From assembly GCA_029978085.1 (NCBI GenBank), contig JAPOJV010000006.1, positions 1 to 49,712 of the forward strand: a DNA stretch of 49,712 nucleotides. The letters are read 5' to 3'. Made by a program: the position numbers and the translations under genes. This document shows, piece by piece, positions 28,676 to 42,271 of this stretch. The DNA is from a bacterium (lineage in GTDB: Bacteria > Planctomycetota > Planctomycetia > Pirellulales > UBA1268). Each line of letters begins with the position of its first letter. Within the stretch, counting starts at the first letter, position 1. Under the pieces are notes generated by a model. The model saw only the letters and a program-made list of their open reading frames with translations. It was not told where the DNA came from and did not search any database.

Positions 28676-29530
28676 ATGACGGCGACGGGAACGGCAGGCG
28701 AGCAACTGGTCATCAAAGGCCTGCACGTGGCAGTGGAGGGCCAGGAAATCCTCAAGGGAGTCGATCTCACGATCGGCCGCGGCGAGATCCACGCGCTAAT
28801 GGGACCGAACGGCTCGGGCAAGAGCACGCTCGGCTACGCGATCATGGGCCATCCCAATTACGAGGTGACGGCCGGCTCGATCGAGCTCGTGACCGCCGAC
28901 GGCACGCGGCACGACGTCTTGGCGATGGAGCCTGACGAACGAGCCCGGGTGGGCATCTTCCTGGCCTTCCAGCGGCCGATGTCGATCCCCGGCGTGCGGC
29001 TGGCCGAGTTCCTGCGGCATTCGGTCACGAATGTCCGCAACCCCGACCGCAAGGAGGGGGAGGAGCTGATGCCCATGCGGGAGTTCCGCTCCGAGCTCAA
29101 GGCCAAGATGGGCGAGCTGTCGATGGATTCGGAGTTCGCCAAGCGGTATGTCAACGACGGCTTTTCCGGCGGCGAGATGAAGCGGGCCGAGATCCTGCAG
29201 CTGGCCATGCTGCGGCCCAAGTTCGCGATCCTCGACGAGACCGACAGCGGCCTCGACGCCGACGCCGTGCGGCTGGCGAGCGAGAGCATCGCCCGCATCG
29301 GCGGCGCCGAGATGGGCATCCTCATCATCACGCACCACGAGCAGCTGCTCGAGCACAACATCCCGCTCCGGACGCACGTCATGCTCGGCGGCAGGATCGT
29401 GGAGTCGGGTGGCCCGGAACTCGCGGCCGAACTGCACAAGAAGGGCTACGAACGGATCCGCGCCACCTACCCCGAAGCGGCTGCCGCCGAACGGGCCCTG
29501 GAGCAAACGGCCGTACCCGTCGGCGCCTGA
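28676..29530 (+). CDS. sufC: Fe-S cluster assembly ATPase SufC
   Basis: 284 aa from the ATG at 28676; GGAG lies 9 nt upstream, whereas the GTG at 28661 lacks one. SufC is the ABC ATPase that drives the SufBC2D scaffold. Walker A is GPNGSGKS (residues 43-50), the signature is FSGGEMKR, and Walker [11 protein letters not shown], as in all SufC proteins. IHALMGPNG and [13 protein letters not shown] are SufC-specific. It is slightly longer than usual at the C terminus ([16 protein letters not shown]). sufB follows after 76 bp. Confidence 0.97.
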
Positions 29531-29548
29531 GCAGAGTCCGATCCTGAG

Positions 29549-29572
29549 GAAGCCCGCGGCGCGAGCCGAGGG
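29549..29572 (+). repeat. Short hairpin repeat D, copy 1 (GCGA tetraloop)
   Basis: GAAGCCCGCGGCGCGAGCCG then AGGG: stem CCCGCGGC (29553-29560), loop GCGA (29561-29564), stem GCCGAGGG (29565-29572), one G-A mismatch. The same element occurs at 48498-48521. It sits in the sufC-sufB gap, 35 nt before the sufB start. Confidence 0.65.
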
Positions 29573-29606
29573 ACGCAACGCTCACACACGCAGAGATCCG
29601 TCACCC

Positions 29607-31019
29607 ATGCCTACCGCCATCGAACCCTCCCCGACCCTCGCGATCGGCGAGATCAACAAGTACGACTTCCGCACCGACTCGCCGGCCGTGTTCAAGGCCC
29701 GGAAGGGGATCGACCCCGAGATCGTCTGCCAGATCTCCGAGATGAAGCGGGAGCCGGAGTGGATGCGGGACTTCCGCCTCAAGTCGCTCGAGATCTTTAA
29801 CTCGAAGCCGATGCCCAACTGGGGCGGCCGGATCGGCGTCGACTTCCAGGACATCTACTACTACCTCAAGCCTGCCGAACAGCAGGGCAAGACATGGGAG
29901 GAGGTGCCCGACGCCATCAAGCAGACCTTCGACCGGCTGGGCATCCCCGAGGCCGAGCGGAAGTTCCTCGCCGGTGTGAAGGCCCAGTTCGAGAGCGAGG
30001 TGGTCTACGGCTCGCTGCAGGAGGACCTCGCCAAGAAGGGCGTGATCTTCACCGACACCGACACCGCCGTCCGCGAGCACTCCGACATGCTCCGGGAGTA
30101 TTTCGGGAAGATCATCCCCCCGACCGACAACAAGTTCGCCGCCCTCAACTCGGCGGTCTGGTCCGGCGGCTCGTTCATCTACGTGCCCAAGGGCGTGTCG
30201 ATCGAGTTTCCGCTCCAGGCCTACTTCCGCATCAACGCCGAGAGCATGGGGCAGTTCGAGCGGACGCTGATCATCGTGGACGAGGGCGCCCACGTGCACT
30301 ACGTCGAAGGCTGCACCGCGCCGATGTACTCCACCGAGAGCCTCCACTCGGCCGTCGTCGAGATCGTGGTGAAGAAGCACGGCCGCTGCCGCTATACGAC
30401 GATCCAAAACTGGGCCAACAACATCTACAACCTCGTCACCAAGCGGGCCATGGCCTACGAGGGAGCCCTCATGGAGTGGATCGACGGCAACCTCGGCAGC
30501 CAGCTGACGATGAAGTACCCCGCCGTCTACATGATGGAGCCGGGCGCCCGTGGCGAAATCCTCTCGATCGCGTTTGCCTCGGCCGGCCAGCACCAGGACG
30601 CCGGCGCCAAGCTCGTCCATGCCGCCCCGCACACCAGCGGTCGCATCGTCTCCAAGAGCATCTCGAAGAACGGCGGCCGGGCCAGCTACCGCGGCCTCGT
30701 GAAAGTGGAGCCGGGGGCCCGCAAGAGCCGGTCGAGCGTCGTCTGCGATGCGCTCATCCTCGACGACAAGAGCCGCAGCGACACCTATCCCTACATCGAG
30801 ATCGAGGAGCAGGACGTGTCGATCGGCCACGAGGCGAGCGTCTCGAAGATCGGCGAGGAGCAGCTCTTCTACCTGATGAGCCGCGGCCTGACCGAGGCCG
30901 AGGCGAGCACGATGATCGTCGGTGGATTCATCGAGCCGCTCGTGAAGGAGCTGCCGATGGAATACGCCGTCGAGATGAACAAGCTGATCCAGCTCCAGAT
31001 GGAAGGCTCGGTGGGCTGA
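29607..31019 (+). CDS. sufB: Fe-S cluster assembly scaffold SufB
   Basis: 470 aa, the usual SufB length. It forms the SufBC2D complex on which Fe-S clusters are built. Characteristic segments: [61 protein letters not shown], and [21 protein letters not shown]. The Cys in [12 protein letters not shown] is at the position of the sulfur-accepting cysteine of the family. Start at the ATG 29607, the only one fitting the family N terminus. It is followed 4 bp later by sufD. Confidence 0.98.
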
Positions 31020-31023
31020 CATC

Positions 31024-32400
31024 ATGACGACCGCCGTCGCTCCTCCTGCCTCCACGCCCTTCACTCGCGACCTGCTCGAGCTGATGATCCGCGGCTCGGC
31101 GGCGCCCGACTGGTCCTCCGACCTCCGCCGTGAGGCCGTGGCTCGCCTCGCAGCCCTCGGGCTGCCCAACCGGCGAGACGAGAACTGGATGCGGACCGAT
31201 CTGCGGCTGTTCAAGCCGGCCGGCTGGTCGTTTCGGCCGGCCCCGGCGGCCGGTGCAGCGTTGCCCGTCGGCCTGCTCACGGCCGGATCCACGGCGCTCG
31301 CGGAAGACTTCGACGGAATTCCGGCCGAGGCGGTGGCACCGGCCGCGCTCGCGGGCCGATTCGCGGCCCTCGACGGTCATGTCGTGGTCGATGAAATCGC
31401 CCCGGAACTGGCCGCGCAGGGCGTGGTCTTCGGCTCGGCCGATCGGCTGCTGGCAGAGCGGCCGGATGCGTTCCGCCCACACTGGTTCTCGGTCATCGAC
31501 TCGGGCTGCGATTGGTTCGCCGCGTTGCACGCGGCGTTTCATCGAGCGAGTGCCGTGCTCTACGTACCCCCGCGGGTGCGGGTGACGACGCCGTTCCACG
31601 TCCTCTCTGCCCTCTCCGACGGCGGCCTCGACACCGGCCACGTGCTCGTGGTGCTCGGCGAAGGCGCCGAGGCCACCGTGCTCACCGAGACGGCCGGCGG
31701 CGGCGCCAGCGGCAATGGCGGCCTCCACTGCGGCGGCACCGAGATCGTGGTCGGGCAGTCGGCCTTCCTGCGGATGGTGAATCTCCAGAATTGGAACACG
31801 GGCGTCTGGCACTTCGCCCGACAAAAGGCGGTGGTGCATGCGGGGGGCCGGCTCCAATGGACGCTCGGCGCCCTCGGCAGCCGGCTCTCGCAGGTGGCAC
31901 AGGATGTCGCCCTCGTCGGCCGCAATGCCGACGCCCAGGTCAACGGCGTGATGTTCACCGAAGGCCGGCAGCAGCTCGTCTACAACACGCTTCAGCACCA
32001 CGAGGCTCCGGCCTGCAAGAGCGATCTCCTCTACAAGGGCGCCCTGCAGGATCGCAGCCGGCTCGTGTGGCGGGGCATGATCAAGGTCGACAAGGCCGCC
32101 CAGAAGACCGACGGCTACCAGCGAAACGACAACCTGATGCTCTCGAAGGAGTCGCGGGCCGACTCGATCCCGGGCCTGGAGATCGAGGCCGACGACGTGC
32201 GGTGCACCCACGGTGCGACCAGCGGCCGCGTCGATACGGACCAGATCTTCTACGCCCAGGCCCGTGGCCTGACGGCCGACGAGGCGGCGCGGCTGGTCGT
32301 GGCCGGTTTCTTCCAGCAGGTGTTCGACCGCATCACGATCGCCCCCGTTCGCGAGGCCCTCGCCCGCGCGATCGGGCAGCGAATCCGGCGGATTAGCTGA
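31024..32400 (+). CDS. sufD: Fe-S cluster assembly protein SufD
   Basis: 458 aa, paralogous to SufB and its partner in SufBC2D. The N-terminal region has PNRRDENWMRTDLRLF, the typical SufD lead-in. The beta-helix core includes GGLHCGGTEIVVGQSAF and VVHAGGRLQWTLGALGS, and the C-terminal part has YNTLQHHEAPACKSDLLYKG and ARGLTADEAARLVVAGFF. It begins 4 bp after sufB and ends 13 bp before the Rieske-SufT fusion, so one transcript is likely. sufS is not in the cluster. Confidence 0.95.
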   Translation: MTTAVAPPASTPFTRDLLELMIRGSAAPDWSSDLRREAVARLAALGLPNRRDENWMRTDLRLFKPAGWSFRPAPAAGAALPVGLLTAGSTALAEDFDGIPAEAVAPAALAGRFAALDGHVVVDEIAPELAAQGVVFGSADRLLAERPDAFRPHWFSVIDSGCDWFAALHAAFHRASAVLYVPPRVRVTTPFHVLSALSDGGLDTGHVLVVLGEGAEATVLTETAGGGASGNGGLHCGGTEIVVGQSAFLRMVNLQNWNTGVWHFARQKAVVHAGGRLQWTLGALGSRLSQVAQDVALVGRNADAQVNGVMFTEGRQQLVYNTLQHHEAPACKSDLLYKGALQDRSRLVWRGMIKVDKAAQKTDGYQRNDNLMLSKESRADSIPGLEIEADDVRCTHGATSGRVDTDQIFYAQARGLTADEAARLVVAGFFQQVFDRITIAPVREALARAIGQRIRRIS

Positions 32401-32413
32401 GGGACTGCGACGC

Positions 32414-33193
32414 ATGGCCGAATTCCTGAAAGTCGCCGACGTCTCCGAAGTGCCCGATCCGGGCAAGACGCTCGTCGAGGTCGACGGCGAGATGGTGGCC
32501 CTGTTCCACGTCGATGGGCAGTGGACCGCGATCGACGACGTCTGCACGCACGACGGCGGCCCGCTGGCCGACGGCGAACTCCGCAACCACACGATCGCCT
32601 GCCCGCGGCACGGGGCGAAGTTCGACATCCGCACCGGGGCCGCGCTCACCATGCCCGCCGTCCGGCCGACCCGGGCCCACGACGTGAAGGTCGAAGGGAA
32701 CGCCGTGTTCGTGCGACTGCGGGCCGAGCCGGGCTCAGCCGGTCCGGCGGCCCACGCCCTGCCGAGCCAGGCGACGGGAACGGCCGGCGTTGCGATGCCG
32801 ACGTCGACCGCATCAGCCACGCCTGCCCCCGCCCCACCGCAGACGGCATCCGCGGCAGCCACCACGGGCCAGCCGCTCGGCGAGGATGCGGTCCGTGAAC
32901 TGCTCAAGGAAGTGAAAGATCCTGAGCTGTTCGTCAACATCGTCGATCTCGGGCTGATCTACGGCGTGACGCTCTCCGCTGCAGCCGATGCAGCCGGCAA
33001 GCAGCACGTGGCGATCGACATGACGATGACGAGTCCGGCCTGCCCAGCCGGGCCGCAGTTGATCGGCGACACGAAGCGGGTGCTCGGTGGGCATCCGGAG
33101 GTCTCGGCCGTCGAAGTGCGGATCGTGATGGATCCCCCCTGGACCCCCGACCGCATGACCGAAGCCGCCCGCGACCAGCTCGGGATTTTTTGA
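32414..33193 (+). CDS. Rieske-type ferredoxin fused to a SufT/MIP18 (DUF59) domain
   Basis: 259 aa in two domains. Residues 1-105 are a Rieske ferredoxin: Cys44-x-His46 in CTHDGGPL and Cys63-x2-His66 in CPRHGAKFD coordinate a [2Fe-2S] cluster. Residues ~106-150 are an Ala/Pro/Thr linker. Residues ~153-259 are a DUF59 domain of the SufT/PaaD/MIP18 type (DPELFVNIVDLGLIYGV, TMTSPACPAGPQL), which helps Fe-S maturation. It is the last gene of the suf run (13 bp after sufD). The reading frame is continuous across the linker, so this is a true fusion. It may deliver electrons during cluster assembly or transfer; that is inference. Confidence 0.9.
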   Translation: MAEFLKVADVSEVPDPGKTLVEVDGEMVALFHVDGQWTAIDDVCTHDGGPLADGELRNHTIACPRHGAKFDIRTGAALTMPAVRPTRAHDVKVEGNAVFVRLRAEPGSAGPAAHALPSQATGTAGVAMPTSTASATPAPAPPQTASAAATTGQPLGEDAVRELLKEVKDPELFVNIVDLGLIYGVTLSAAADAAGKQHVAIDMTMTSPACPAGPQLIGDTKRVLGGHPEVSAVEVRIVMDPPWTPDRMTEAARDQLGIF

Positions 33194-33204
33194 AGCGCGA
33201 CCCG

Positions 33205-33438
33205 CAGTGGGTCGACCTCCTGTGGCGGGGTTCGGGGCTGCCCACGCCCCGTCGCCGGACGCTCGCTGAGGTAGCGCAGGTACAAGGTGTGTCGCCGGCT
33301 CGGGGGCGGTACAAGTCTCGTCGCGGGACCTCGAAGACTCGGTCCAAATGCTCCTCGAGCTTGCACCGACCCCCTCGCCTCCCTGGCTGCGCTCGGCGGC
33401 ATACGCCGGCTCCTGGGGCATGGGCAGCCCCTCACGGC
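33205..33438 (+). repeat. Interspersed repeat family A, copy 3, interrupted by family B
   Basis: The left part of A (33205-33268, GGGTCGACCTCCTG to GGACGCTCGCT) and the right part (about 33382-33438, CCTGGCTGCGCTCGGCGGCA to CAGCCCCTCACGG) match copy 1. The central block of A is missing and family B occupies its place. It lies in the gene-free stretch 33194-33529. Confidence 0.8.
33294..33383 (+). repeat. Interspersed repeat family B, copy 1 (inside A copy 3)
   Basis: It starts GCCGGCTCGGGGGCGGTACA and ends GCACCGACCCCCTCGCC. Its core hairpin is GGACC-TCGAAGACTC-GGTCC. Copies at 39363-39480 and, inverted, 43611-43703. Confidence 0.85.
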
Positions 33439-33443
33439 ATTAC

Positions 33444-33502
33444 GTAGCCCGGTCACGCCGTGACCGGAAAGGAGCCAGCCCGTCATGGAGTGACAGGCCT
33501 AC
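33444..33502. repeat. Palindromic repeat cluster 7
   Basis: GTAGC then CCGGTCACGCCGTGACCGG (33449-33467), then a degenerate closing unit CCCGTCATGGAGTGACAGG (33479-33497) and CCTAC. It lies directly after family A copy 3, as cluster 1 does after copy 1. It separates the suf operon from mfnD. Confidence 0.88.
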
Positions 33503-33529
33503 GGGCATGTCGCTCTGTATGCTCTCCGC

Positions 33530-34573
33530 ATGCGGCTCGTCATCTACGAATACTGCTGCGCCGGCGGCAGCGGCCTCGACTCGCTCGCTCCCGAAGGACG
33601 CGCGATGCTGCAGGCCCTCGTCGCCGATGCCGTGACCGGCGGGGGGCTCGAGGTCGCCGTGCTCGTTGCGGAGAACCTGTCGCTCGCGCTGCCGACCGGC
33701 GTGCGCGTGCTGCCCGTCGCTGCGAGTCGTGAACTCGACACGCTCGTTGCCGCGTCGACGGCCGCCGACGCGGTGCTGATCGTGGCGCCCGAGACCGATG
33801 GGATCCTCGCCACGCGGGTCACAGCCGTACGGGCAGCCGGCGCGACCGTGCTCGCGCCATCTCGAGCCTTCATCGACATCGCCAGCGACAAGCAGGCCAC
33901 GATCCAGGCTCTGTCCGCTGCCGGCGTGCCGGTGCCGGCGGGGCGGACGCTCGCCGCCGGGGAACAATGGCCCGACGCCTTCATCCGCCCCGCGGTCCGC
34001 AAGCCGCTCGACGGCACCGGCGGCGATGGCTTCGTCGTCGTGGACCACGGTGCTGCTCCGCCGCCCCCCACCCAGCAGCCCACGCGGATCGAAGCCTTTG
34101 TCACGGGCATGGCCGTGGGCGTGTCCTGCCTCTGCGGTCCGCGCGGCGTGGATCCGCTGCCGCCGTTGCGTCAGGTGTTCACGACGACGAGTTCTGCGGT
34201 CGCATACGCCGGCGGCGAACCGCTTTCAGATCGACTCCTGGCAGCACGGGCCGAGGCGCTGGCCCGGCGGGCAGTTCATGCGGTCGCACGGGCGACAGGC
34301 GGCGAGGAATTCGCCGCAGGCTGGATCGGCATCGACATGATTCTCGGTGAGCGGAGCGACGGCCGCGGTGACCGGGTGCTCGAGATCAACCCGCGGGTCA
34401 CGACCTCGTTCGTGGGCCACGCGTCAGGCTTGAGCGGCGGCCTCGTGCGGGCGATGCTCGATGCCGCCGCCGGCCGAACGCCGATGCCCCCAGCAGGCGG
34501 TCGGCTCTCCCCGCGTTCCTTCAGGCTCTCCAGTAATGCCCACGCCGCCGCAGACCGATCTCGTGGCGATTGA
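33530..34573 (+). CDS. mfnD: ATP-grasp protein, tyramine-glutamate ligase-like (MfnD)
   Basis: 347 aa. It is an ATP-grasp ligase: MRLVIYEYCCAGGSG at the N terminus resembles MfnD (MJ0815-type) proteins, SDKQATIQALSAAGVPVPAG is the typical ATP-grasp entry, and GWIGIDMIL with VLEINPRVTTSF supplies the Mg/ATP-binding acid and Asn. In methanogens MfnD joins glutamate to tyramine in methanofuran; bacterial homologues belong to the H4MPT C1 pathway. The two genes that follow match MfnF and MfnE, which supports the name. It overlaps the next gene by 38 bp. The last ~25 residues look disordered. Confidence 0.75.
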   Translation: MRLVIYEYCCAGGSGLDSLAPEGRAMLQALVADAVTGGGLEVAVLVAENLSLALPTGVRVLPVAASRELDTLVAASTAADAVLIVAPETDGILATRVTAVRAAGATVLAPSRAFIDIASDKQATIQALSAAGVPVPAGRTLAAGEQWPDAFIRPAVRKPLDGTGGDGFVVVDHGAAPPPPTQQPTRIEAFVTGMAVGVSCLCGPRGVDPLPPLRQVFTTTSSAVAYAGGEPLSDRLLAARAEALARRAVHAVARATGGEEFAAGWIGIDMILGERSDGRGDRVLEINPRVTTSFVGHASGLSGGLVRAMLDAAAGRTPMPPAGGRLSPRSFRLSSNAHAAADRSRGD

Positions 34574-35573
34574 TGTCGGCGGCGCGAACCTCAAGGCCGC
34601 CGATGGCCGGGGGTGGACGCAGGCCGTCGCCTTTCCGCTGTGGCAAGAATGGCAGCGCCTTCCGGAGGCTCTTGCCGGCCTCGTTGGGCCCGTCACGCCG
34701 CGGCGGGTCGTGGCCACGATGACCGGCGAAATTGCCGACTGCTATCCGTCGCGGGCAGCAGGCGTCGCACACATCGTCGATGCGGTGCTCACCGCGGCGG
34801 CTGCGATGCGGTGCGTCGATACCCCCGGCATCTATCTGCTCGACGGCCGGATTGTCTCGGCCGCGGAGGCGAAGGCTGATCCGCTGCATGCGGCGGCCAG
34901 TAACTGGCATGCCCTCGCCCGGCTCGCCGCCGCCCATGCGCCGACCGATCGCGCGCTGCTCATCGACGTGGGCTCGACCACCGTCGACGTCGTGCCGATC
35001 ATCGGCGGCATGCCGGCACCGCGGGCGCATGACGACGCCGGTCGGCTGCTCGCCGGCGAGCTCGTGTACACCGGCATCGAGCGGACGCCACTGGCGGCCG
35101 TCGTGCGGTGGCTGCCGCACCGCGGCCTGCGACGTCCCGTCGCCGCGGAACGATTTGCCGACTCCCGCGACGTCTGGCTGCTGCGTGGCGGGCTGCCGGA
35201 ACGCCCCGATGCGACCGACACGGCCGACGGCGGCCCGGCCACACGCGACGCCGCCCGGATTCGCCTGGCACGGTCACTGCTCGTGGAGCCGGCCGACTTC
35301 TCTTTGACCGATGCAGCAGCTGCGGCAGCGGCGTTCGCGGCCAGGCAGGCGCGGCTCGTCGCGCGGGCCATCGGTCGCGTCGTCATGGGCTGTGGCTGGC
35401 GGCCGACGAGCGTCGTGATCGCCGGTCACGGCGAGCAACTCGCGCGAATGGCGATCGACCGGGCCTGCCTAAGCGGCCCACTCGTCTCGCTGCCGGAGGT
35501 GCTCGGGGCCGACGTCTCGCGGGCGGCTCCCGCACATGCCCTCGCCCTCATTGCCCGGGGAGTGCTCGCGTGA
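34536..35573 (+). CDS. mfnF: Hydantoinase/oxoprolinase-like protein (MfnF-like)
   Basis: 345 aa from the ATG at 34536; an earlier in-frame start at 34461 would lie deep in mfnD. An actin-like/ASKHA-type fold is suggested by LVAIDVGGANLKAADG at the N terminus and LLIDVGSTTVDVVPI in the middle, the phosphate loops of the family. DPLHAAASNWHALARLAA and VMGCGWRPTSVVIAGHGEQL also fit the MJ0830-type (MfnF) branch. MfnF condenses the aminomethylfuran and tyramine-glutamate parts of methanofuran. It overlaps mfnE by 4 bp (GTGA). Confidence 0.75.
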   Translation: MPTPPQTDLVAIDVGGANLKAADGRGWTQAVAFPLWQEWQRLPEALAGLVGPVTPRRVVATMTGEIADCYPSRAAGVAHIVDAVLTAAAAMRCVDTPGIYLLDGRIVSAAEAKADPLHAAASNWHALARLAAAHAPTDRALLIDVGSTTVDVVPIIGGMPAPRAHDDAGRLLAGELVYTGIERTPLAAVVRWLPHRGLRRPVAAERFADSRDVWLLRGGLPERPDATDTADGGPATRDAARIRLARSLLVEPADFSLTDAAAAAAAFAARQARLVARAIGRVVMGCGWRPTSVVIAGHGEQLARMAIDRACLSGPLVSLPEVLGADVSRAAPAHALALIARGVLA

Positions 35574-36157
35574 CGGCAGGCTGGACGACCGGCGCGATTC
35601 GCAGGCGAGCAGGTGTGGGCGATCGACGCCTGCTCGTCGTGAAGCTGGGGGGCAGCCTGCTCACGCGGCCGCAGTGGCCCGAGGAGCTCGAACTGCTCCT
35701 GCCCGGGCTTCAGCAACCGCTGCTCCTGATCATCGGCGGCGGAGCGGTCGTGGACGGCCTGCGAGCGATCGACGCTGAAGCACCGCAGCCCCCTGCTCTG
35801 ATGCATCGGCTGGCGATCGAGGCGATGCGGCTCACGGCGGCCATCGTCGCCGAATCACTCACGCTGCCGATCGTGACGACCGCAGATGACGCTCATGGGG
35901 CGGCGATTCTCGACGTCGCGACCTGGCTCACGATCCACGCTGCGCCACTGCCCGAAGACTGGAGCGTCACGAGTGATTCGCTCGCCGCGGCCGTCGCCGC
36001 CGCAGTCGATGCCGACCTGCTGCTGGTCAAGAGCGTGCCACCTCCAGCGGCGGCGAATGACCTCCAGGCACTGTCAGCTGCCGGCTGGGTCGACGAGGCG
36101 TTTCCGACGGCCGCACACGGAGTGGCCGGGATCGAGTGGGCCGCGCCGGCGCCCTAG
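35570..36157 (+). CDS. mfnE: Amino-acid-kinase family protein (MfnE-like)
   Basis: 195 aa from the GTG at 35570, overlapping the mfnF stop (GTGA). It has LLVVKLGGSLL with Lys25, and LLIIGGGAVVDGLRAID, both phosphate-binding motifs of the amino acid kinase superfamily. VTSDSLAAAVAAAVDADLLLVKS is the C-terminal half. MfnE phosphorylates aminomethylfuran phosphate to the diphosphate used by MfnF. It is short for the superfamily but matches this branch. The name depends on context as well as sequence. A family A repeat follows 18 bp after the stop. Confidence 0.72.
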   Translation: MTAGWTTGAIRRRAGVGDRRLLVVKLGGSLLTRPQWPEELELLLPGLQQPLLLIIGGGAVVDGLRAIDAEAPQPPALMHRLAIEAMRLTAAIVAESLTLPIVTTADDAHGAAILDVATWLTIHAAPLPEDWSVTSDSLAAAVAAAVDADLLLVKSVPPPAAANDLQALSAAGWVDEAFPTAAHGVAGIEWAAPAP

Positions 36158-36174
36158 ACGGTTGCCAACCAAAA

Positions 36175-36341
36175 CGCCGTGAGGGGCTGCCCATGCCCCA
36201 GGAGCCGGCGTTTGCCGCCGAGCGCAGGCAGGATGCCGAAGCGAAGGCGGCATCCGAGCGAGCGAAGGACAGGATGTCCGAAGCGAGCGTCCGGCGATGG
36301 GGCGTGGGTGGCCCCGAGCTCTCGCCGCAGGAGGTCGACCC
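36175..36341 (-). repeat. Interspersed repeat family A, copy 4 (inverted)
   Basis: CGCCGTGAGGGGCTGCCC to GAGGTCGACCCGC, the reverse complement of copy 1 with internal substitutions (for example CCAGGAGCC for CCGTCGCC). It occupies the convergent gap between mfnE and the DUF1598 gene. Confidence 0.8.
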
Positions 36342-36405
36342 GCGGAGGAGTAGACGGGCCTGCGGTGTTCAGACCGTGGGCCACATGCGGAGCATGTGGA
36401 CTACG
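36342..36405. repeat. Interspersed repeat family C, copy 2
   Basis: Hairpins GCGGT-GTTCAG-ACCGT (36362-36377) and CCACATGC-GGA-GCATGTGG (36381-36399). It is directly downstream of A copy 4 in the same relative orientation as the pair at 24528-24757. Confidence 0.8.
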
Positions 36406-36422
36406 GCGCGGAGCGGGTGAAC

Positions 36423-37781
36423 TCAGTCCCACCACACGCCCGTCTGCGGGCGGGCGGCGAGCGCAGCGGTCCGTTGTTCACCCAGGTCAGCGGCTGCCTG
36501 GGCATTGGCTGCGAACTGCCAGGGCTGGAATTGCACGCCGCCGGAGGCACTCAGCACCCAGGTGGTGCCCTTCTTGAGGCCGCTGGCCACGGTCGGCACC
36601 GTCTCGGGCACATCGTACGTGGGGAGCGGCACGGCCGTCGCATCGAGCAACGGTGCGAGATCGAGCCCTGCCCGGGCGTCGAGCTGCCGCCCCTTGATGA
36701 GCGCCGCCACGACGGCGAGATCGACGCAGTTCATGAGTTCGGCGAACACCGGCTGCTTCAGGGCCAGATCGTCGTAGTGGGCGGTCATCGCGTCACACCA
36801 CTTCTCGGCAACCTTGTCGGCGCGGCCTGCCCCGCGCTCGATACCGTTCTTGCTGAAAAGGTCGCTCTCGGTGAGGCACTTCATTCGGCGTCCGGAGAGC
36901 CGCCAGGCGAGCTCGTCGGCGTCGCGGGCGATCGGGTCATACTCGGCCTCGAGCCAGAAGCGGGGCAGCGATGCCGCCTGACCGCCCGCGGGCACCATCG
37001 ACAGGTAGCTCGGCAGCTGCCTCACGCCCGATGGCTCGAACCCCATGCCGATCCGCTTCATGCGGTAGTCCGCGGCCACGAGCACCTGGGCGAACCGGCT
37101 GTCGGCCGGCACGCCTCCCACGGTCACGGTCTGCAATCCCAACGCCTGCTCCATGCCGCGAAACAGCGGCTCAGGGTTGCCCATGACGGCCCGCTGCTTG
37201 GCAAGGAAGGCATCGAGCCGGGCGAGTCCGTCGCGGGTCGGATCGATCGAGCAGCGGATGCCCCCCGCCCGAGCACCGTCGATCGCCCGGAGCGCCACGA
37301 CGAAATCCTCGAACTGCAGGAGCGGCCGCTTGCTGACTGCGCCCACGATCGCACCCGCAGGCCCCACGACGGGCGTGTCGGCCGGGCCGACGAGCACGAT
37401 GTCGTGACGGTCGGGATCGACGAACACCGCCGTGATTTGTTGGAGGCCGCCCAGGAACACCACGTCGGACGGAACCGGCTTGCCGGCAGCGGCGGCATCA
37501 CGAACGGCGGCGGTCATGGCGGCCAGCGAGACCTTGCGCAGCGCACCGGCCTTCACGGCGTCGGCGTCAGCGAGGGCCGCACGGCGCTCTGCAGCCAGCG
37601 ACTCGACCGCTCGCGCATCGAGGTTTCGCACGATGCCATCGGCATCGATCGCGATCCCGCCGACCGCACCAAAGCCACCGCGACCAAACTGCCCGAAGGC
37701 ACTGCCACCGAGCGTGAGCGCCACGAGCACGGCGGCCGCTGCAGTCTGAAGGAGCGACTGAGATCCATCTCGGAGATACAT
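36423..37781 (-). CDS. Secreted DUF1598 family protein
   Basis: 452 aa. N-terminal signal peptide (AAAAVLVALTLGGSAFGQ) followed by a Gly-rich stretch. The body contains FLGGLQQITAVFVDPDRHDIVLVGPAD, GGIRCSIDPTRDGLARL and RMKRIGMGFEP, which I associate with DUF1598, a family found almost only in planctomycetes. Function unknown; it is expected in the periplasm-like space or outside. No metal or catalytic motif is apparent. It is divergent from the FHA gene with a 221-bp gap. Confidence 0.82.
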   Translation of the reverse strand: MYLRDGSQSLLQTAAAAVLVALTLGGSAFGQFGRGGFGAVGGIAIDADGIVRNLDARAVESLAAERRAALADADAVKAGALRKVSLAAMTAAVRDAAAAGKPVPSDVVFLGGLQQITAVFVDPDRHDIVLVGPADTPVVGPAGAIVGAVSKRPLLQFEDFVVALRAIDGARAGGIRCSIDPTRDGLARLDAFLAKQRAVMGNPEPLFRGMEQALGLQTVTVGGVPADSRFAQVLVAADYRMKRIGMGFEPSGVRQLPSYLSMVPAGGQAASLPRFWLEAEYDPIARDADELAWRLSGRRMKCLTESDLFSKNGIERGAGRADKVAEKWCDAMTAHYDDLALKQPVFAELMNCVDLAVVAALIKGRQLDARAGLDLAPLLDATAVPLPTYDVPETVPTVASGLKKGTTWVLSASGGVQFQPWQFAANAQAAADLGEQRTAALAARPQTGVWWD

Positions 37782-39980: not shown

Positions 39981-41270
39981 TCACCCCAGCCGATATTTGA
40001 CGCGGCCACCCACGATCGTGGCGACCGCCCTGCCCCGCAGCGTCCACCCATGGAACGGCGAGTTGATGCTCTTCGACCGGAACGTATTGATGTCGACCTG
40101 CCACGACCGCTCGGGATCGATGAGCGTGATGTCGGCCACCGCTCCGGGCCGGAGCGTGCCGCGGTTGATACCCAGGATCCGGGCCGGCAGCGTGCTGAGC
40201 GCCTCGATGAGCCGCGGCCAGCCGATGCGGCCGGTGGCCACGAGCCGGGTCACCGACAGCCCCACGGCCGTCTCCAGGCCGAGGATGCCGAACGGCGCCC
40301 GGTCGAGCTCCAGCATCTTCTTCTCACGGGCGTGCGGCGCGTGGTCGGTCGCGATGCAGTCGATCGTGCCGTCGACGAGTCCCTCGATGATCGCCTCGAC
40401 GTCGGCGGCCGTCCGCAAGGGCGGGCTCATCTTGTAGTTCGAGTCGAAGCCCCGCAGGCTCTCGTCGGTGAGCGTGAAGTGGTGCGGGCAGGCCTCCGCG
40501 GTGACGCGGACGCCCCGCCGCTTGGCGTCGCGAATGAGCGCCACCCCCCCGGCGGTCGAGACGTGCATCACGTGCAGCCGGCCGCCGGTGGCCTCGGTGA
40601 GGATGATGTCGCGGCCGATCATCACGTCTTCGGCGGCCGCGGGCATGCCGGGCAGGCCGAGGAGGAGCGACACGAGCCCCTCGTTCATCACGCCGCCGCG
40701 GGAGAGTTCGAGCACCTCCTCGTGGGCGAGGATCGGTTTGTCAAACATGCGGCAGTATTCGAGGGCCCGCCGCATGAGTTCGGCGTCGTAGACGGGCGCC
40801 CCGTCGTCGCTGAACGCCACCGCCCCGGCCTCGACGAGCCGGCCGATCTCCGCCAGTTCCTTCCCCTCGCGGCCGCGGCTCACGCAGGCGACCACGAACA
40901 CGTTGCACGTGTCGGCCCGAGCCGCCTTCTGATGGATGAACTCCACCGCCGCCTGCGTGTCGATCGGCGGCTCGGTGTTCGGGATGCACGCGACGCTCGT
41001 GAAGCCACCGGCCAGGGCGGCTTGCGTGCCGGTCTCGATCGTCTCGTCTTCCTCGCGGCCCGGCTCACGCAGGTGCACGTGCATGTCAACGAGGCCGGGC
41101 GCGACGATCAGCCCGCTGGCTTCGATCGTCTCGTCGGCTCGGCCCAAGGCCTGGCCCCCTTCGTGGCCGATCGACACCACGAGCCCGTCGCGGACGAGCA
41201 CGTCGTCGATGCGGTCGATGTTCTGGGCCGGGTCGATCACCCTGCCGCCGCGAATGAGAAGCGTGGCCAT
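39981..41270 (-). CDS. pyrC: Dihydroorotase (PyrC, class I)
   Basis: 429 aa from the ATG at 41270; AGGAAAGGAT lies upstream. It closes carbamoyl aspartate to dihydroorotate in pyrimidine synthesis. Metal motif DMHVHLREPG (His64, His66), substrate loop FTSVACIPNTEPP, CPHHFTLTD, and ATDHAPHAREKK with the catalytic Asp are all present. This is the longer bacterial type that often associates with PyrB. The start codon overlaps the pyrB stop by one base (TGATG), implying translational coupling. Confidence 0.97.
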   Translation of the reverse strand: MATLLIRGGRVIDPAQNIDRIDDVLVRDGLVVSIGHEGGQALGRADETIEASGLIVAPGLVDMHVHLREPGREEDETIETGTQAALAGGFTSVACIPNTEPPIDTQAAVEFIHQKAARADTCNVFVVACVSRGREGKELAEIGRLVEAGAVAFSDDGAPVYDAELMRRALEYCRMFDKPILAHEEVLELSRGGVMNEGLVSLLLGLPGMPAAAEDVMIGRDIILTEATGGRLHVMHVSTAGGVALIRDAKRRGVRVTAEACPHHFTLTDESLRGFDSNYKMSPPLRTAADVEAIIEGLVDGTIDCIATDHAPHAREKKMLELDRAPFGILGLETAVGLSVTRLVATGRIGWPRLIEALSTLPARILGINRGTLRPGAVADITLIDPERSWQVDINTFRSKSINSPFHGWTLRGRAVATIVGGRVKYRLG

Positions 41271-42271
41271 CAGACGATCCTTTCCTGTCGGGCGCTGGAG
41301 CCGCCGGCCGAGCCGCCACGCGGACCGCAGAGCAGCCAGAGCACGGCCATCCGCACGGCCAGCCCGTTGGTCACCTGGTCGAGAATAAGCGATTGCCCAC
41401 AGTCGGCCACCTCGGCCGTGACCTCGACGCCGCGATTGATCGGGCCGGGAGCGAGGATGAGCAGGTCGGGCTTCGCCCGCCGCAGCCGCTCGCCCGTCAT
41501 CGCATAGAGGTGGGCATATTCCCGCACCGACGGAAACGGCCGGGTGTTCTGCCGCTCGAACTGGATTCGCAGCAGATTGAGCACGTCGCACCGCGGGATG
41601 ATCGCGTCGAGGTCGTGCGAGACCTCTACGCCGATCTCCCGCCAGCGATCCGATACGAGCGTCGGGGGGCCACAGAGGATCACGTGGGCACCGAGCTTCA
41701 TCAGTCCCCAGAGGTTGGAGCGGGCGGTCCGGCTGTGGGAGATGTCGCCCACGAGCCCCACCGTCACGCCCTTGAGATCACCCCGTCGCTCGCGGATCGA
41801 GAAGATGTCGAGCAGGCCCTGGGTCGGATGCTCGTGCGGACCGTCACCGGCGTTGATCACACCGACATCGAGATACTGCGCCAGCAGATGCGGCGTACCG
41901 GGCGTGGCATGCCGCACCACGACGGCGTCGATCCCCATCGCCTCCAGATTCTTCGCCGTGTCGATGAACGACTCCCCCTTCGACAGGCTGCTCGAAGCGG
42001 CCGTGAAGTCGACCACGTCGGCCCCGAGGCGACGGGCCGCCAGCGAGAAGCTCGTGCGGGTGCGGGTGGAGTTCTCGAAGAACAAATTGACGACCGTGCG
42101 GCCGCTGAGCAGGGCGAGCTTCGTGCGACAGCCGTCGGTCGCCTCCTTGAAGAGGGCCGCGGTGTCGAGCAGGAGCCGCACCTCATCGGGCGTGAGCCGC
42201 TCGAGGTCGAGCAGGTGCCGATGCTGCCATTGGGGGGGAACCGACTGCCGGTCGAATGTCGCCGCAGGCAT
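41270..42271 (-). CDS. pyrB: Aspartate carbamoyltransferase catalytic subunit
   Basis: 333 aa from the ATG at 42271; the open frame continues upstream but lacks family sequence. It condenses carbamoyl phosphate with aspartate. [12 protein letters not shown] (residues ~65-76) is the carbamoyl-phosphate loop; [33 protein letters not shown] and [10 protein letters not shown] (aspartate-side PxNRG-type loop) follow. No pyrI or pyrR is next to it. First gene of a pyrB-pyrC-NYN unit. The C terminus ([15 protein letters not shown]) is a short extension. Confidence 0.97.

Follow-up and report, generated by a model that had tools for sequence, protein, structure and literature searches.

Three overlapping genes in a planctomycete DNA stretch of 49,712 nucleotides (the window) very probably constitute an mfnD-mfnF-mfnE operon for the biosynthesis of methylofuran, which would carry formyl groups as a coenzyme in the H4MPT-linked C1 pathway of bacteria. 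This assignment draws on gene anatomy, homology, conserved gene order, protein fold, co-occurrence with FhcD and the presence in the same genome of most other genes of the pathway. Enzyme activities, substrates, co-transcription and cofactor structure are predicted from these features, and the individual steps are assigned by homology.

The three genes are co-directional and lie head to tail on the plus strand. The first (33530-34573) encodes an mfnD-like (orf1-type) ATP-grasp ligase of 347 residues, a predicted tyramine (or tyrosine):L-glutamate ligase. The second (34536-35573, with an ATG start at 34536) encodes an mfnF-like ASKHA-fold protein of 345 residues (orf9-type, TIGR03123), which is predicted to couple furanmethyl-PP with glutamyl-tyramine or glutamyl-tyrosine, and the third (35570-36157, with a GTG start at 35570) encodes an mfnE-like (orf21-type) protein of 195 residues with an amino-acid-kinase fold, the predicted [5-(aminomethyl)furan-3-yl]methyl phosphate kinase. 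An earlier, sequence-only reading of this DNA had described three overlapping genes, and the sequence confirms both overlaps, one of 38 bp between mfnD and mfnF (34536-34573) and one of 4 bp (GTGA) between the mfnF stop and the mfnE start (35570-35573). The mechanically called open reading frames begin earlier, at 34461 for mfnF and 35108 for mfnE; relatives of the mfnE product align from residue 1 of the start at 35570 (MTAGWTTGAIR versus MTIGWTRGVIR), and the mfnF start at 34536 is likewise matched by homologue alignments. All three frames are intact and retain their invariant residues, and dN/dS against the nearest relative is approximately 0.25 for mfnD, 0.18 for mfnF and 0.43 for mfnE, indicating purifying selection. 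These ratios and the conservation of the genes in relatives exclude chance open reading frames. A scan of positions 33100-36500 for promoters and terminators, which is uninformative in such a GC-rich genome, found none.

The sequence-only reading had likened the first product to an ATP-grasp ligase, the second to an MJ0830-type ASKHA protein and the third to an amino-acid kinase. The locus tag MJ0830 appears in none of the open-access papers searched. Pfam agrees with the three assignments, with all three above the gathering cut-offs: ATP-grasp_3 (PF02655) at 68.9 bits for the mfnD product, which additionally matches PF18301 at 39.5 bits, Hydantoinase_A at 48.7 bits for the mfnF product, and AA_kinase at 32.7 bits for the mfnE product. 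The proposed search with MfnD, MfnE and MfnF profiles returned the expected families as best NCBIfam matches, all of them below the curated cut-offs. The mfnF product falls just under the cut-off of TIGR03123 (234.7 versus 244.1 bits, spanning 3-326 of 327), a cut-off that is passed by 18 of 40 relatives, among them every sampled one that belongs to a different family within the order; its second-best model is MfnF (NF040623; 147.5 bits versus 520). The mfnD product lies far below the cut-off of MfnD_Meth (NF040722; 45.2 bits versus 400), and so does the mfnE product, scanned within the longer open reading frame, below that of MfnE (NF040622; 31.7 bits versus 300). NF040722, NF040623 and NF040622 are equivalog models of archaeal enzymes, and the archaeal proteins of Methanocaldococcus and Methanococcus are the best curated families for the trio, yet the scores against them stay well below the equivalog cut-offs and count against a methylofuran operon, those of MfnE and MfnD most of all. 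The top fold match of the mfnD product is 3df7, an ATP-grasp protein of Archaeoglobus, and the mfnF product matches structure 3c0b (Methanococcus protein Q6M145; E 1e-30). For the mfnE product, the weakest of the three by score, a profile of its relatives finds 7qrh (E 7e-18), the MfnE of Methanococcus vannielii, and the predicted AlphaFold structure (pLDDT 92.8) has the same entry as its best Foldseek match (TM 0.70).

To tell MfnD from the pathway's remaining ATP-grasp ligases, with which it could be confused, a tree was built with the proteins of annotated proteobacterial clusters, whose ORF names were assigned here by neighbours and mutual similarity. In published nomenclature, orf1 is mfnD (PMC5020050), Orf9, Orf21 and Orf22 are MfnF, MfnE and MfnB, and OrfY and Orf5 have been renamed MyfA and MyfB (PMC8141765). 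The window ATP-grasp protein joins the Orf1 proteins of proteobacteria with support of 92/86, separate from both OrfY (MyfA) and RimK/Orf5 (MyfB), and pairwise and profile scores match this placement. The tree rules out that the window protein is itself OrfY/MyfA, a type that sits on another contig (C237). The mfnF product, in turn, is 36-38% identical to proteobacterial Orf9. A tblastn search of a plasmid collection, less sensitive than a profile search, gave no match to the window MfnD, though Orf1 proteins are present in that collection.

The bacterial cofactor, unlike the archaeal one, serves formaldehyde oxidation and bears a long polyglutamate chain (PMC8141765). In the described pathway, MfnD forms gamma-glutamyl-tyramine or -tyrosine, MfnE forms a furan pyrophosphate, and MfnF joins both (PMC8141765, PMC11365854). 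By homology, the window MfnD would combine glutamate with tyramine (or tyrosine) to give glutamyl-tyramine or glutamyl-tyrosine, MfnE would convert (aminomethyl)furanmethyl phosphate to the pyrophosphate, and MfnF would join these two products into a methylofuran core carrying one glutamate. The sequence-only reading had taken the trio for three consecutive activities of side-chain assembly; instead, D and E are parallel branches joined by F (PMC8141765, PMC11365854), and the trio would build the core with its first glutamate, leaving the long chain to MyfA and MyfB. Ligases of both these types, encoded on contigs C237 and C187, would then add the further glutamates. From the joint presence of the MfnD, MyfA and MyfB types, we expect the cofactor to be polyglutamylated. 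The finished methylofuran would sit in the Fhc complex and take the formyl group from formyl-H4MPT, with hydrolysis yielding formate.

The genome was searched for fae, mtd, mch, fhcA, fhcB, fhcD and mfnB, and all are present, on contigs with a GC content of 0.68-0.71 (0.69 in the window). A fae gene on C237 adjoins a methylene-H4MPT dehydrogenase gene (Mpt_N; L037:2314-3270), which may be of the planctomycete MtdC type, and beside both lies the OrfY-type (MyfA-like) ATP-grasp ligase identified by the tree. On C187, mch is directly followed by a RimK/MptN-type ligase gene whose product groups with Orf5, that is, MyfB. fhcD is on C42 and mfnB on C61; fhcA is divided between contig ends of C62 and C241, and its C241 part adjoins fhcB. 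The best profiles of the trio are thus those of MfnD, MfnF and MfnE, and H4MPT genes accompany them in the genome; neither unrelated best profiles nor a lack of H4MPT genes, which the sequence-only reading had named as evidence against itself, was found, and its proposal of a methylofuran-type cofactor for formaldehyde oxidation is supported on both counts. A second fae-type gene, on C65 (L038:8404-9123), stands apart from the rest of the C1 genes; its neighbour is an ApbE-like gene. Within the window, a minus-strand amidohydrolase gene (39984-41777) shows a weak match to the FhcA model (36.7 bits, over 41070-41261), and its Pfam family is that of a generic amidohydrolase.

The scattering of C1 genes over several contigs and the division of fhcA between two contig ends could be taken to mean that the trio is what remains of a pathway that has decayed or no longer functions. 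The break in fhcA coincides with the contig ends and is thus an assembly cut, and given dN/dS values of roughly 0.2-0.4, intact frames and retained invariant residues, such a remnant is scarcely credible.

Further features of the genome also speak against a methylofuran operon: the trio stands apart from the other C1 genes, and an MfnA-level tyrosine decarboxylase was not found in the genome. The only PF00282 protein (C2, L060:5021-6562) scores 41.8 with the MfnA model against a cut-off of 299.4 and is nearest to L-2,4-diaminobutyrate decarboxylase; it is a possible but unproven candidate for the source of tyramine. MfnC, too, has no assigned counterpart in this genome, and none is known from other bacteria. 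The operon might instead make a furan-type cofactor that differs from proteobacterial methylofuran in its core or side chain, with another amine or a short glutamate chain. The missing decarboxylase, the low scores against the archaeal equivalogs and the identity of 30-38% to the proteobacterial proteins would fit such a cofactor, and proteobacteria themselves have cores of two types (PMC8141765). The MyfA-like and MyfB-like ligases point rather to a polyglutamate chain, and of six strains named as carrying an MfnD orthologue in addition to MyfA, five produced methylofuran of the tyramine type (PMC8141765). Three tyramine producers, half of the strains of that type, lack a recognisable MfnA (PMC8141765), so that its absence here needs no new core. 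We regard a distinct cofactor as unlikely and retain methylofuran as the predicted product.

The distribution of the genes follows that of Fhc. Of 294 genomes of the phylum, which are related, so that a Fisher test on them gives no real probability, 58 have both MfnF and FhcD and 235 have neither, one has FhcD alone and none has MfnF alone (weak partial MfnF matches of about 22 bits in G131 and G324 were left out of the MfnF count). The pattern covers 13 families, and one family of the same order (f17) has neither gene. Of the 58 genomes, 55 also have MfnD, which never occurs without MfnF, and in 41 it is encoded directly upstream of mfnF. The D-F-E order is present in 79 of 110 fetched loci (two sets, with some genomes in both), several of the others being cut by contig ends. 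In a genome of another planctomycete family (G160), a stretch of about 8 kb holds fhcD, mch, a MyfB-like ligase gene, mfnD, mfnF and mfnE, together with mfnB in convergent orientation; in one Gemmataceae genome, mch and a MyfB-like ligase gene are close to the mfn genes. Outside the phylum, plasmid pAZKH of Azoarcus sp. KH32C carries the same families in the same order, orf1 (MfnD)-orf9 (MfnF)-orf21 (MfnE), with overlapping ends, beside mfnB and at a short distance from fae and mch; Azoarcus and this organism share orfY and orf5 as well as these three genes. Among bacteria the D-F-E arrangement is nothing rare or novel: it is widespread in the order and found also in Azoarcus, and this gene order is common to planctomycetes and a betaproteobacterium.

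The window locus differs from its proteobacterial counterparts in lying beside suf genes rather than C1 genes. sufB, sufD and a gene for a Rieske+FeS_assembly_P (SufT) fusion (29409-33193) are directly upstream of the trio. Where related loci were eligible, linkage was found for sufB in 33 of 54 and for the Rieske/SufT fusion in 41 of 65; Blastopirellula marina and Lacipirellula limnantheis are among the species that show it. Many related loci also keep a divergent DUF1598 gene and a downstream FHA/sigma-54 regulator gene. This long synteny, with the generic folds and low equivalog scores of the products, could suggest that the trio belongs to an unrelated ATP-grasp/kinase pathway, such as peptide or amino-acid modification, and is adjacent by chance or serves the suf genes. 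The near-perfect co-occurrence with FhcD, and the grouping of the trio with fhcD, mch, myfB and mfnB elsewhere among planctomycetes and with C1 genes in Azoarcus, led us to reject this reading, which is extremely improbable also in view of the fold match of MfnE and of several loci in which the trio is present with no suf genes nearby. The suf-mfn synteny may reflect simple shared ancestry. It is quite doubtful that planctomycetes make a distinct methylofuran, in core or glutamate chain, by divergent enzymes with tyramine from an unrecognised source, and that the suf linkage at the same time means that Fe-S assembly is functionally connected with the C1 pathway.

That planctomycetes possess H4MPT-linked C1 genes, as the sequence-only reading stated, was already described: such genes, together with those for methanofuran, have been known in the phylum since Chistoserdova et al. 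2004, as cited in PMC5020050 and PMC9874027, and pathway and phylum are the same as here, with no difference of principle. Within the open-access literature searched, every identification of methylofuran comes from proteobacteria, and we found no description of the D-F-E operon of this lineage or of its suf linkage. Planctomycete methylofuran now has a gene-level prediction, a directly testable extension beyond the proteobacteria.

The intergenic regions on both flanks of the operon (33191-33529 and 36158-36425) are mosaics of short repeats, approximately 25-250 bp in length and 80-100% alike, with further copies in either orientation throughout the window and on other contigs of the genome.
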